60,263 bases of DNA from Alphaproteobacteria bacterium (lineage in GTDB: Bacteria > Pseudomonadota > Alphaproteobacteria > UBA2966), in the NCBI GenBank assembly GCA_021296255.1, contig JAGWAU010000028.1, positions 2,423-62,685 of the forward strand, given 5' to 3'. Shown here piece by piece: positions 49,781 to 52,582 of this stretch. Positions within the stretch are counted from its first letter, which is position 1; each line of letters opens with the position of its first letter. A program made the position numbers and the translations under genes. Below the pieces are notes generated by a model. The model was not told where the DNA came from. It worked only from the letters and a program-made list of their open reading frames with translations, and did not search any database.

Positions 49781-49964
49781 CGTGTTCCCCCATTGCTTCG
49801 GGTGCTGCGGTCGGGCGCGCAGACGCCCGTTGGCCGAGACGCTATCATGGCCCGGGAATGGTGGCGAGTCGGACCGGCTTCCGGTAGTGCATCACTTTGA
49901 AATCATCCTACCACGGGGGACCGCCGTGCCCTATGCTTAGCGGGAAGCATGGACGGAGATGGGT

Positions 49965-50162
49965 ATGCCTAATTCAGAAGAGACTCGGCTATGGGAGAGG
50001 TTGCGGGACATCCGAAATCGTATTCAGGAGATTGCCGATCTGGAAGCTCGTGGAGCGATTTTTGGTTCTGGTGCGGCTGACGGGAGTCTCGATCCAGAGC
50101 GTGAACGCCTGATTAAAGAGACTGAAGACATACTGGATCGTCTTGAGGCGATGTACAACTAA
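49965..50162 (+). CDS. Small acidic coiled-coil-like hypothetical protein
   Basis: A 65-residue protein starting MPNSEETRLWERLRDIRNRIQ and ending in DILDRLEAMYN. Nearly all of it looks helical and heptad-like. The ATG at 49965 is six bases after GGAG; the ATG at 49959 touches that site and is less likely. No known family recognised. Its TAA stop overlaps the next start (TAATG), so the two small genes are co-translated. Base composition is lower in GC than the catabolic genes around it, consistent with a mobile island. Confidence 0.65.
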   Translation: MPNSEETRLWERLRDIRNRIQEIADLEARGAIFGSGAADGSLDPERERLIKETEDILDRLEAMYN

Positions 50163-50395
50163 TGCCGAAGGGTCCCCAAGGCCAGAAGCGCCCCCGCGAT
50201 GTCGTCTCGAACGCCGTCAAGGTCATGCGGGTCGCAACCGGCGAGGAAGAGGAAGAGTTCGAGGACGACGGGAAGGACCCCGCCGCCAAGGCGCTAGGCG
50301 CAAAGGGTGGCAAGGCTAGGGCATCTAGGCTCACTTCGGACCAGAGGTCGGCCATCGCCCGAAAAGCTGCCGCAGCGCGTTGGTCAAAAGACTGA
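50162..50395 (+). CDS. Small KGG-motif basic/acidic protein
   Basis: A 77-residue protein with an acidic middle (GEEEEEFEDDGKDPAA) and a basic Ala/Lys-rich tail (LGAKGGKARASRLTSDQRSAIARKAAAARW). Similar short proteins, often called RNA-binding or histone-like, occur on plasmids, phages and islands; function is not established. The tail would suit nucleic-acid binding. It overlaps the preceding gene by one base (TAATG) and ends 48 bases from the tRNA gene on the other strand. Confidence 0.75.
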   Translation: MPKGPQGQKRPRDVVSNAVKVMRVATGEEEEEFEDDGKDPAAKALGAKGGKARASRLTSDQRSAIARKAAAARWSKD

Positions 50396-50436
50396 GTCGA
50401 CAGGTTCTGCTTGCATGGTATGTTCATGTCGACCTT

Positions 50437-50532
50437 GGGGTGTGGCGGGGGCGGCGGGATTCGAACCCGCGAAACGCTGGTGACGTTTTCCGGTTTTAGA
50501 GACCGGTGCGATATGCCTCTCTGCCACACCCC
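50437..50532 (-). repeat. 10-bp inverted repeat bracketing the tRNA
   Basis: GGGGTGTGGC at 50437-50446 is the exact inverse of GCCACACCCC at 50523-50532. In the precursor RNA (minus strand) tRNA positions 2-11 could pair with the discriminator, CCA and six bases of 3' trailer, competing with the normal acceptor stem. The repeat is seen directly; a regulatory effect is inference. Confidence 0.6.
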
Positions 50533-50533
50533 C
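50443..50533 (-). tRNA. Class II tRNA with CUA anticodon (putative amber suppressor, serine-like)
   Basis: A 91-base tRNA including encoded CCA. The acceptor GGGGGTG pairs with CGCCCCC (one G-U). The D-arm has U8, A14, G15 and G18-G19; C48 can pair with G15. The anticodon stem CCGGT/ACCGG closes the loop CTCTAAA, placing CTA at positions 34-36, which would read UAG. A long variable arm (AAACG stem, seven-base loop, CGTTT) makes it class II. The T-arm GCGGG-TTCGAAT-CCCGC is canonical. Discriminator G73 plus the long variable arm fit serine charging; leucine and tyrosine tRNAs normally have A73. The D-stem has an A-C mismatch (12-23). A good promoter lies 13 bases upstream. Confidence 0.85.
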
Positions 50534-50545
50534 TCTTCCACGCAC

Positions 50546-50573
50546 AGTGTAACGAGTAACGGAAGTCAGTCAA
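50546..50573 (-). promoter_or_regulatory. Promoter of the amber tRNA gene
   Basis: On the minus strand, TTGACT (50573-50568), a 16-base spacer and TACACT (50551-50546) form a good sigma-70 type promoter. Transcription would begin about 5 bases before the tRNA's first base at 50533. Confidence 0.65.
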
Positions 50574-50586
50574 GTGAGTACTCCTC

Positions 50587-50614
50587 TTGACTCCCATACT
50601 CCACACGGTAAGAT
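50587..50614 (+). promoter_or_regulatory. Promoter of the wHTH-like island gene, back to back with the tRNA promoter
   Basis: TTGACT (50587-50592), a 16-base spacer and TAAGAT (50609-50614). Its -35 box and that of the tRNA promoter form an inverted repeat (AGTCAAG-N11-CTTGACT, 50568-50592), so the two promoters are mirror images. The predicted start point, near 50621, falls inside an operator-like dyad. Confidence 0.6.
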
Positions 50615-50633
50615 CTCCACACAACTGTGGAGA
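50599..50633 (+). promoter_or_regulatory. Operator-like dyad with three CTCCACA half-sites
   Basis: TCTCCACA-CAAC-TGTGGAGA (50614-50633) is a perfect 8-bp dyad across the predicted transcription start and contains the GGAG ribosome site of the gene at 50639. A further direct half-site CTCCACAC lies at 50599-50606 between the -35 and -10 boxes. The layout is typical of an autorepressor binding site. Confidence 0.55.
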
Positions 50634-50638
50634 CTACC

Positions 50639-51586
50639 ATGACTGAACAATTGAAGAAATACCTCCGGAGCCCCTCGTATCCGAGCATGCCGCTGGAACA
50701 TGCGGTGAACGCCGTTGCCAAAATCGAGAAGGTGTACCGGACCTCTCGCGTCGACAGACGCGAGGCGGCAAAGCTGCTCGGCTACAGTAGCTTGAGTGGC
50801 CCAGCGGCTAAAGCTCTGGCTGCTCTAGCATCGTACGGTCTTCTAGAGCGGGCAGGAAAGGGTGAAGCCCGCGTAACCGAGAGGGCGAAGACGATCCTCT
50901 ATGCTGATGACGAAGAACGTCATGATGGCTTGAGGGATGCGGCACTAGAGCCGCCGCTGTTTCGTGAGCTGAGAGAACGCTTCGAGGCGGCTATTGATGA
51001 TGGCGTGCCCCTGCCGGAGAGCGGAGTCATCAGACACCTGGAGAGAGAGAACTTCAATCCCAGCGCTGTGCGGCCGGCGGCACAAGCATTTCTCAAAACC
51101 ATAGAATTTTTAGCATCAAGTGGCGCAAGCAAAAGTCATGGCATTGAGCCACAAGATGATGTGAAATCCCTGAATGCAGGTTCCGGCTCGGAACCTGCGA
51201 CCTACGAAGGAGCGCAAGTTGGCGACTATATTCAGTGGGAATCCGAAGGCGTCCTTCGCCTCTCGGAGCCCTTGCGCGTCCGTGCCATACATGACGATGG
51301 CGAGTGGGTCTTCGTTGAAGGACACGAAGTGGGGATTCCGATGAATCAAGTGATTGTTGAAGAACGTGAAGCAGCGCCGCCGCCAGCGCCACCTACCCTT
51401 CCTCTCGATGTGGGGGCAGAGGCCCGTCAAACCGGCGAGCATGAACAGCTTGAATATAAACTGAGCGACACGACGCGCGTGCGGCTCTCCGTGACCGGCG
51501 AGATGGGTACAAAGGAACTCGGGCGTTTGATTCGCTTGCTCGAAACCCAGTGCGACATTTTGAAGGATGAGGAGGAAGAAAAATGA
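50639..51586 (+). CDS. Unknown island protein with N-terminal winged-helix-like region
   Basis: A 315-residue protein. Residues 1-90 (LRSPSYPSMPLEHAVNAVAKIEKVY, then DRREAAKLLGYSSLSGPAAKALAALASYGLLER) look like a winged helix-turn-helix and match a poorly studied family seen on plasmids and islands. Residues 185-245 may form a small beta domain (GDYIQWESEGVLRLSEPLRVRAIHDDGEWVFVEG), and the Pro-rich linker leads to a C-terminal segment with TRVRLSVTGEMGTKELGRLIRLLETQ. The ATG at 50639 has GGAG at 50629-50632; a GTG at 50627 would place the site inside the gene. It may regulate itself and the divergent tRNA; this is inferred from position. Confidence 0.7.
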   Translation: MTEQLKKYLRSPSYPSMPLEHAVNAVAKIEKVYRTSRVDRREAAKLLGYSSLSGPAAKALAALASYGLLERAGKGEARVTERAKTILYADDEERHDGLRDAALEPPLFRELRERFEAAIDDGVPLPESGVIRHLERENFNPSAVRPAAQAFLKTIEFLASSGASKSHGIEPQDDVKSLNAGSGSEPATYEGAQVGDYIQWESEGVLRLSEPLRVRAIHDDGEWVFVEGHEVGIPMNQVIVEEREAAPPPAPPTLPLDVGAEARQTGEHEQLEYKLSDTTRVRLSVTGEMGTKELGRLIRLLETQCDILKDEEEEK

Positions 51587-51621
51587 AACTCCTACTTGAC
51601 GCTAAGCATTAGAATTCACAT
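51583..51621 (+). other. Amber-interrupted 5' extension of the transposase frame
   Basis: ATG at 51583 overlaps the TGA of the preceding gene (ATGA) and is six bases after a consensus ribosome site. It encodes MKLLLDAKH, then TAG (51610-51612), then NSH, and runs in phase into the transposase ATG at 51622. Either translation stops and restarts nine bases on, or the TAG is read through, which the amber tRNA encoded 1 kb away could do. Confidence 0.6.
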
Positions 51622-52512
51622 ATGAGAGGCATGAGAAAACTGCCCCTCAAAACCCGTGCTCTGATCTTGAACATGCTCTGCGAAGGCCAGTCAATGCGGG
51701 CGACCGCACGGCTGGCCGACGTGAGTTTCAACACCGTGGCGAAGCTGCTGATCGACGCGGGCAGGGTCTGTGCCGATCTACATGACGAGCTTGTACAAGA
51801 CGTAACCGCTAGCCGTATCCAGTGCGATGAGGTCTGGAGCTTCACCTACGCAAAGCAAAAGAACGTCGCGAATGCGAAGGCGGCTCCAGCCGAAGCCGGA
51901 GACACTTGGACTTGGACCGCTCTGGATAGCGACTCCAAGCTGATCGTCTCGTGGCTAGTCGGTGGCCGCGACAGCGAGTACGCGATTGCCTTCATGGACG
52001 ATCTCCAGTCTCGGCTGGCAAACCGTGTGCAACTGACCACAGACGGGCACAGCGCATACCTGGAAGCGGTAGAAGATGCCTTCGGTGGCGATGTGGACTA
52101 TGCCCAACTGGTGAAGCTGTATGGCGAAGCGCCGGTAACAGAAGCGCGTTATAGCCCCGCTCCTTGCACCGGAACTCGCAAGCGGCGGGTCGAGGGGAAC
52201 CCTAATCCTAGGGCTGTTAGCACGTCCCACGTCGAGCGCCAGAACCTGACGATGCGGATGCAGATGCGCCGGTTCACACGGCTGACTAATGCGTTCTCCA
52301 AGAAATTCGAGAACCACATGCACATGGTCGCGCTCTACACCGTCTGGTACAACTTCATCCGCATCCACAAGTCTCTGCGGGTCACGCCCGCCATGGCCGC
52401 CGGGGTCACCGACACTCTGCATGACATGGAGTGGATCGTGAGCCTGATCGATGCACGGGCACCGAAACCGAACCGTCCAGAGGCTTATCGCAAGCGTCAG
52501 ATTTCAAACTGA
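51622..52512 (+). mobile_element. IS1-family-like DDE transposase
   Basis: A 296-residue transposase. The N-terminal helix-turn-helix (LKTRALILNMLCEGQSMRATARLADVS) is followed by the catalytic core with D69 (QCDEVWSF), D141 (LTTDGHSAY) and E205 (SHVERQNL), at IS1-family spacing. The core is uninterrupted, so the enzyme may be active. Terminal inverted repeats could not be identified with confidence. No ribosome site precedes the ATGs at 51622 or 51631; the strong GGAGGAAG site at 51571-51578 serves an ATG at 51583 that is in frame but separated by TAG at 51610-51612. Confidence 0.85.
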
Positions 52513-52582
52513 TACACTATTGACCTCATGCAGGCCGCCACCGTAAGCCCTAGCGCCGACCGAAGCCTCGACCCGAGCTTTC

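Follow-up and report, generated by a model that had tools for sequence, protein, structure and literature searches.

A Serine-Type Amber Suppressor tRNA Gene Paired with a Divergent Protein-Coding Gene in an IS1-like Transposon of an Alphaproteobacterium

A window of 60,263 bp (the whole stretch analyzed) from contig JAGWAU010000028.1 of an alphaproteobacterial assembly (GCA_021296255.1, lineage UBA2966) contains a tRNA gene with the amber anticodon CUA, carried by an IS1-like transposon and transcribed divergently from a protein-coding gene designated P2. Its identity as a real natural amber tRNA of the serine type was confirmed by sequence-based analysis, and it should decode the UAG stop codon as an amino acid. 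The pair recurs, and because a fourth copy occurs in an acidobacterial metagenome-assembled genome (MAG) outside such a transposon, the sequence comparisons identify the unit as P2 plus suppressor tRNA and not a stray tRNA. This recurrence points to a regulated pair of genes, perhaps toxic or defensive in role, that has not been described before. The reading preferred here, with a rough probability of 0.4, is that of a mobile two-part module in which P2 represses the serine-type nonsense-suppressor tRNA, with a toxin-antitoxin (TA)-like or abortive-defence role.

Structure and Identity of the tRNA

The only tRNA detected in the window by ARAGORN was the minus-strand gene listed in Table 1, with the anticodon CTA. 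The Rfam model RF00005 matched positions 50533-50446 over its full length with every model arm formed (51.4 bits, E 4e-8; cut-off 29 bits), and RNA folding yielded the acceptor, anticodon, variable, and T arms. The class II fold drawn by hand in the initial annotation was thus reproduced, with a 7-bp acceptor stem, a 5-bp T-stem, and a long, paired variable arm. The anticodon stem CCGGU/ACCGG encloses the 7-nt loop CUCUAAA with U33 and C34, U35, and A36, as is characteristic of an amber suppressor; ARAGORN and Rfam agree with the earlier placement of CUA at positions 34-36. A sequencing error at these positions is unlikely because the related tRNA of L059 (described below), a locus from a different phylum, has the identical anticodon. 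The CCA end is encoded after G73, a feature common to most host tRNAs. The host genome has 39 tRNAs above the Rfam cut-off, including the amber tRNA, which is not the lowest-scoring, and ordinary tRNA-Ser(GCU) and tRNA-Ser(GGA).

The class II cloverleaf with a long variable arm and 7/5 acceptor/T stems is that of bacterial tRNA-Ser. All the identity elements listed in the literature for bacterial seryl-tRNA synthetase (SerRS), namely G73, G1-C72, G2-C71, G30-C40, and the long variable arm (PMC9976931), were found in the sequence. The closest ordinary tRNAs in the alignment were tRNA-Ser(CGA) and tRNA-Ser(UGA), whose anticodons are turned into CUA and UUA by a change of G35 to U. The serine assignment, made originally from G73 and the variable arm, is supported by this identity set and by the nearest relatives. 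The name tRNA-Pyl given by ARAGORN derives from the anticodon alone and was ruled out by the long variable arm, since tRNA-Pyl has a short variable region and a compact core. Selenocysteine tRNA (8/5 or 9/4 stems) and allo-tRNA (8/4 or 9/3 stems) were ruled out by the 7/5 stems.

Recurrence of P2 with Suppressor tRNAs

As a control, suppressor tRNAs were searched in the class without reference to P2, using patterns for class I and class II CTA tRNAs (385 genomes) and for class II TTA tRNAs (367 genomes); because these patterns depend on the T-loop stretch GGTTCGAATCC, they would not detect divergent tRNAs. Matches occurred only in the window (CTA) and in genomes G228 and G337 (class II TTA). 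The P2 sequence search had found in G228 a homologue 40% identical to P2, with a tRNA-Ser-like UUA gene at the equivalent place and strand, while the second UUA tRNA with P2, in G337, came from the transposase survey. In both genomes, the UUA tRNA is flanked by a P4-like and a P2-like gene within an IS1-like element of the same kind and is antiparallel to P2, as in the window. Homologues of P2 were present in 11 of 372 genomes of the class, and the probability that all three suppressor tRNAs of the class are co-located with P2 by chance is about 1e-14. Nothing new was found in the orders of G337 (5 genomes searched) and G228 (3 genomes).

An independent scan with the class II CTA pattern, based on the tRNA pattern alone and covering one genome per species in ~85,000 species, returned 22 stretches, 10 of which were read as CTA tRNAs by ARAGORN. 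In one of them (L059, a Vicinamibacterales MAG of the Acidobacteria), a homologue 50% identical to P2 (profile E 1.5e-54) is divergent from a CTA tRNA-Ser. This pair is flanked by ordinary chromosomal genes, without P4 or a transposase, which shows that it also occurs independently of the transposon and beyond the phylum of the host. The initial annotation had proposed looking for relatives with the same anticodon in other islands; such a relative exists, but outside any such transposon.

At two further P2 loci, the divergent position is occupied by a tRNA with another anticodon: a class II tRNA of the leucine type (A73, GGCGAAAUUGGUAGACGC) with a GCG anticodon, corresponding to arginine codons, in L240, and a CGT tRNA in L187. 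An Rfam-grade tRNA lies at most 0.7 kb away at 5 of the 11 P2 loci of the class, for which the chance is about 1e-6 assuming 45 tRNAs per 3.3 Mb. Linkage of two genes that keep reappearing as a pair on mobile elements, as seen for P2 and the tRNA, is typical of TA modules. A conserved hairpin, CGGTGGCTG...CAGCCACCGGCCC(C)TTGGATCANCACTC, was also observed in two genomes after tRNA or tRNA-like sequences that have a UAC loop (L238:3390-3450 and L218:3900-3960).

The IS1-like Transposon and Its Relatives

The tRNA resides within a 2,635-bp IS1-like transposon (49885-52519) with matching 20-bp inverted ends, TAGTGCATCACTTTGAAATC and TAGTGTATCAGTTTGAAATC; ends of the TAGTGTCTCAGTTTGAAATC form bound most sister elements. 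It carries P1, P4, the tRNA, P2, and the transposase (Table 1). The earlier suggestion that the tRNA is tied to an island is thus upheld; that description, supported as to a natural, serine-type, island-borne and probably conditional amber tRNA, had omitted the defined transposon ends, the divergent partner gene, and the UUA relatives. The G+C content is 57% inside the transposon versus 64% in the flank. An empty site was identified by alignment in a genome of the same genus, where the flanks adjoin (G290:C63:61218-63433 and 63548-65870), and the tRNA had no match in either of two same-genus genomes. A target-site duplication of 8-9 bp was not found, the flanks GCTTCCGG and TTGACCTC being different. 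The possibility that the tRNA is an integration scar was ruled out, as it lies 558 bp inside the transposon ends; a prophage was ruled out, as PHROG matches among the cargo genes were limited to the transposase and P4 (31 residues).

Table 1. Features of the IS1-like transposon (positions in the window).
Feature	Positions	Strand	Basis
Left terminal inverted repeat, TAGTGCATCACTTTGAAATC	49885..49904	+	Pairs with right end; TAGTGTCTCAGTTTGAAATC-like ends in most sister elements
P1, small open reading frame (ORF), 65 aa, starts MPNSEETRLWERLRDIR, no family	49965..50162	+	Sequence, family searches
P4-like gene, 77 aa, basic, ends GGKARASRLTSDQRSAIARKAAAARW; left-hand marker gene of the transposon family	50162..50395	+	Copies in sister elements
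tRNA-Ser-like amber suppressor gene, CUA anticodon, class II, G73, encoded CCA	50443..50533	-	ARAGORN, Rfam, alignment with UUA/CUA relatives and ordinary tRNA-Ser
Putative tRNA promoter, sigma-70-like, TTGACT-16-TACACT, 12 nt upstream of tRNA	50546..50573	-	Consensus scan
Imperfect palindrome AGTCAAG-TGAGTACTCCT-CTTGACT (N11 spacer); candidate operator	50568..50592	.	Read from sequence
Putative P2 promoter, sigma-70-like, TTGACT-16-TAAGAT	50587..50614	+	Consensus scan
Hairpin/palindrome TCTCCACA-CAAC-TGTGGAGA, just before P2 start	50614..50633	.	Sequence
P2, 315 aa, unnamed family, weakly winged-helix-like N-terminal half, divergent from tRNA	50639..51586	+	Homologues beside tRNAs in L059, L186, L198, L187, L240
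Conserved promoter-like stretch TTGACG-17-CATATG before transposase, contains in-frame TAG (51610-51612)	51596..51624	+	Pattern in most sister elements
IS1-like transposase, 296 aa	51622..52512	+	PF03400 and NF033558 matches
Right terminal inverted repeat, TAGTGTATCAGTTTGAAATC, overlaps transposase 3' end	52500..52519	-	Comparison of ends

The transposase scored above the cut-off of PF03400 (29 bits; cut-off 24.1) and below that of NF033558 (64.5 bits; cut-off 100). Sister transposases are 59-69% identical to it, copies were found in 34 of 385 genomes of the class (profile search), and the full-length relatives more than 60% identical that occur on named plasmids all belong to Alphaproteobacteria. 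The P4-like protein shares 57-71% identity with the copies in three sister elements. In most sister loci, the P4-like gene is located ~0.8-2.3 kb upstream of the transposase gene, with variable cargo in between: Xre with an ImmA/IrrE-type peptidase, SocA/Panacea, an nSTAND-like AAA ATPase, P63C, or an SDH-type protease. This cargo is toxin-antitoxin- or defence-like. Loci L182-L218 represent a widespread family of IS1-like transposons in the class, with the P4 marker and a variable slot for TA- or defence-like cargo; no description of such a family was found in the open-access papers searched. The window element shares with IS1-family transposons the IS1-type transposase domain and terminal inverted repeats, but differs in its variable cargo slot, the P4 marker, the lack of a visible 8-9 bp duplication, and a score under the NCBIfam IS1 cut-off.

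P2 and the Divergent Promoter Region

No curated family was found for P2 in the family database searches. Several winged-helix matches were obtained in the sequence searches, all weak and none significant. The structure models had pLDDT values of 49 for the whole protein and 60 for the N-terminal half, which was helical; the fold searches, with a best E of about 1 in Foldseek and a best Z of 6.0 in VIA-align for a designed helical repeat, were considered uninformative. Homologues of P2 were absent from the 50,697 phage records, the viral contigs, and the plasmid collection searched.

The sigma-70 consensus scan revealed 3 sites in the region versus 0.2 expected, where a sequence match alone is no evidence of function. 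The tRNA and P2 are each preceded by such a site, and the back-to-back -35 boxes form the imperfect palindrome that we infer to be a candidate operator. The divergent promoter-like sites with a palindrome between them support shared regulation.

Between P2 and the tRNA, three other loci have a perfect 11-14 bp hairpin together with a short ORF for a basic peptide (MRR..., with an NQKGR-like motif; L186:3340-3445, L198:2930-3030, and L238:3190-3295), the last codons of which overlap or abut the hairpin upstream of the tRNA. The peptide ORF and hairpin may possibly constitute an attenuator or a third component. No basic peptide ORF was present between P2 and the tRNA in the window or L059.

Proposed Function and Alternative Explanations

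In the preferred reading, P2 would be a DNA-binding protein that occupies the promoter region shared by the two divergent genes, holding the tRNA at a low level. Upon loss or inactivation of P2, whether by loss of the element, stress, or phage takeover, the tRNA would be made, charged with serine by the host SerRS, and able to read UAG (UAA/UAG for the UUA relatives). The resulting readthrough would lengthen many host and invader proteins, which would make the tRNA an RNA poison with a TA-like or abortive-defence role and would favour retention of the element. The frequent use of TAG by the host, remarked upon in the initial annotation, was verified in 400 kb of host sequence, where 92 of 276 ORFs of at least 200 aa (33%) end in TAG; unregulated efficient suppression would therefore affect a third of genes. 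Given this TAG frequency and the TA- or defence-type cargo of the sister elements, a repressed suppressor tRNA that is set free upon failure of P2 is the most economical explanation. Somewhat more tentatively, the locus may stand for a new class of mobile TA or defence module, in which P2 would silence a translation-ready miscoding tRNA effector until infection or loss of the element sets it free; the effector would be a nonsense suppressor (Ser-CUA or Ser-UUA) and possibly a missense tRNA (Leu-GCG).

Several observations weigh against this interpretation. P2 has no confident DNA-binding assignment, given the weak winged-helix matches and low-confidence models. No tRNA was detectable at 5 of the 11 P2 loci of the class (L189, L211, L239, L241, and L242), and the tRNA-like sequence of L238 is aberrant, without a D-arm. 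Amber suppression by Escherichia coli tRNA-His(CUA)/HisRS did not slow the growth of Caulobacter crescentus (PMC3875453), and UAG readthrough thus need not be toxic in Alphaproteobacteria.

The same tolerance of amber suppression by an alphaproteobacterium (PMC3875453) is consistent with a beneficial or neutral regulated recoding, in which P2 would turn on a low level of UAG/UAA readthrough during stress, so that the proteome is diversified or nonsense alleles are rescued without a toxin being involved. The intact tRNA with its own promoter-like sequence also agrees with this explanation, which is nevertheless unlikely, as the cargo slot otherwise holds TA- or defence-like genes and TAG ends a third of the host genes. 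Slightly less probable is a role for or against phages or anticodon nucleases, with the tRNA serving as a decoy or replacement against tRNA-targeting defences or reading UAG-recoded genes of phages or plasmids. The viral scan showed that phages carry suppressor and spare tRNAs, and an anti-defence role has been discussed for tRNA arrays (PMC12803027); however, the window has a lone tRNA with phage genes absent nearby, and neither the phage records nor the viral contigs contained a P2 homologue.

It is improbable that the tRNA serves the expression of the transposon through readthrough of an in-frame stop before the transposase, giving an N-terminally extended transposase that is translationally coupled to P2 and depends on the presence of the tRNA. 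The P2 stop codon does overlap an ATG (ATGA at 51583), whose frame runs into the transposase with a single TAG (51610-51612, within 51583-51633); an upstream ATG likewise overlaps the P2 stop in L186, and in all three suppressor transposons the stop before the transposase is readable by their own tRNA (TAG here, TAA in the UUA elements). Despite fitting three elements, this was rejected as the main explanation since the stretch is a promoter (TTGAC-17-TATA-like) conserved across the transposon family and stops occur there without tRNAs: tRNA-less elements also stop in frame (TGA in L188 and L197, TAA in L201 and L204) or have broken frames, and L059 has P2 and the tRNA without a transposase. 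A functionless, decaying or accidental copy of tRNA-Ser with one anticodon mutation is just as improbable: CGA becomes CUA by one base, the serine bodies are ordinary, and the tRNA is absent from the same-genus genomes, but intact copies occur at four loci from two phyla, with either CUA or UUA and each time next to P2.

Natural nonsense-suppressor tRNAs outside phage, pyrrolysine, and selenocysteine systems are usually regarded as rare mutants, and a mobile pair found across phyla implies that there is a reason for bacteria to retain and mobilize stop-reading tRNAs. Should the tRNA be a regulated poison, as in the repressed-module reading, it would attack translation termination, a mode of action undescribed as far as the limited literature search shows. 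The module would also offer ready-made serine suppressors for Alphaproteobacteria.

Other CUA tRNAs from the Species-Wide Scan

Three leucine-type CUA tRNAs were located in other contexts. In a Hyphomicrobiales MAG (L042:997-1239), the tRNA lies between an array of clustered regularly interspaced short palindromic repeats (CRISPR) with a solitary degenerate repeat (about 997-1032) and GSU0053/GSU0054-type cas genes. By analogy, this layout resembles that of the CRISPR-repressed CreTA modules discussed below, with the suppressor tRNA in the toxin position; complementarity between spacer and promoter was looked for, and none was clear. In a Bryobacterales MAG (L054:2152-5197), the tRNA adjoins a long IS1-like transposase gene and a P4-like ORF with a different cargo gene, a second type of suppressor-tRNA transposon. 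In a Nitrospinota MAG (L048:5461-8000), an N6/N4 DNA methylase gene lies ~1 kb away from the tRNA, and the region may be a restriction locus.

Comparison with Known Systems

The E. coli amber suppressor supD (serU) is a class II serine-type tRNA whose anticodon was converted from CGA to CUA by a change of G35 to U. The tRNA of the window, taken alone, is a natural counterpart of supD, both having a serine class II body and a CUA anticodon derived in this way; however, supD arose as a laboratory mutation in a chromosomal tRNA gene, whereas the window tRNA is a separate transposon gene, paired with P2 and recurrent across phyla.

Suppressor tRNAs borne by phages, such as crAss-like phages (PMC7886860, PMC10879173), also place a CUA tRNA on a mobile element. 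They serve recoded phage genes, whereas the four genes of the window element all have TAA or TGA as their stop codon, so that no recoding is required. The CreTA systems are CRISPR-repressed RNA toxin modules in which CreT toxins sequester tRNAs (PMC8501985). They share with the proposed model a small RNA that acts on translation and is silenced by a linked repressor, but the effector in the window would itself be a tRNA. The window element has no CRISPR-Cas: no CRISPR RNA family match was obtained in the window (Rfam), and no cas gene is among the four ORFs of the element.

For the pair of P2 and a suppressor tRNA, whether carried by a transposon or not, no counterpart was found among curated families or open-access papers; no prior description of a P2-like or suppressor-tRNA TA module was found in the open-access literature, to which the search was confined, so that one may exist elsewhere. 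The closest known system in spirit is tRNA-ProX with ProRSx of Streptomyces, a natural tRNA whose body and anticodon disagree and whose partner gene is co-encoded (PMC11415595). The mismatch of body and anticodon and the co-encoded partner are common to both, but the partner of tRNA-ProX is a synthetase, whereas that in the window is an uncharacterised protein, the tRNA is directed to stop codons, and the pair is carried as transposon cargo.
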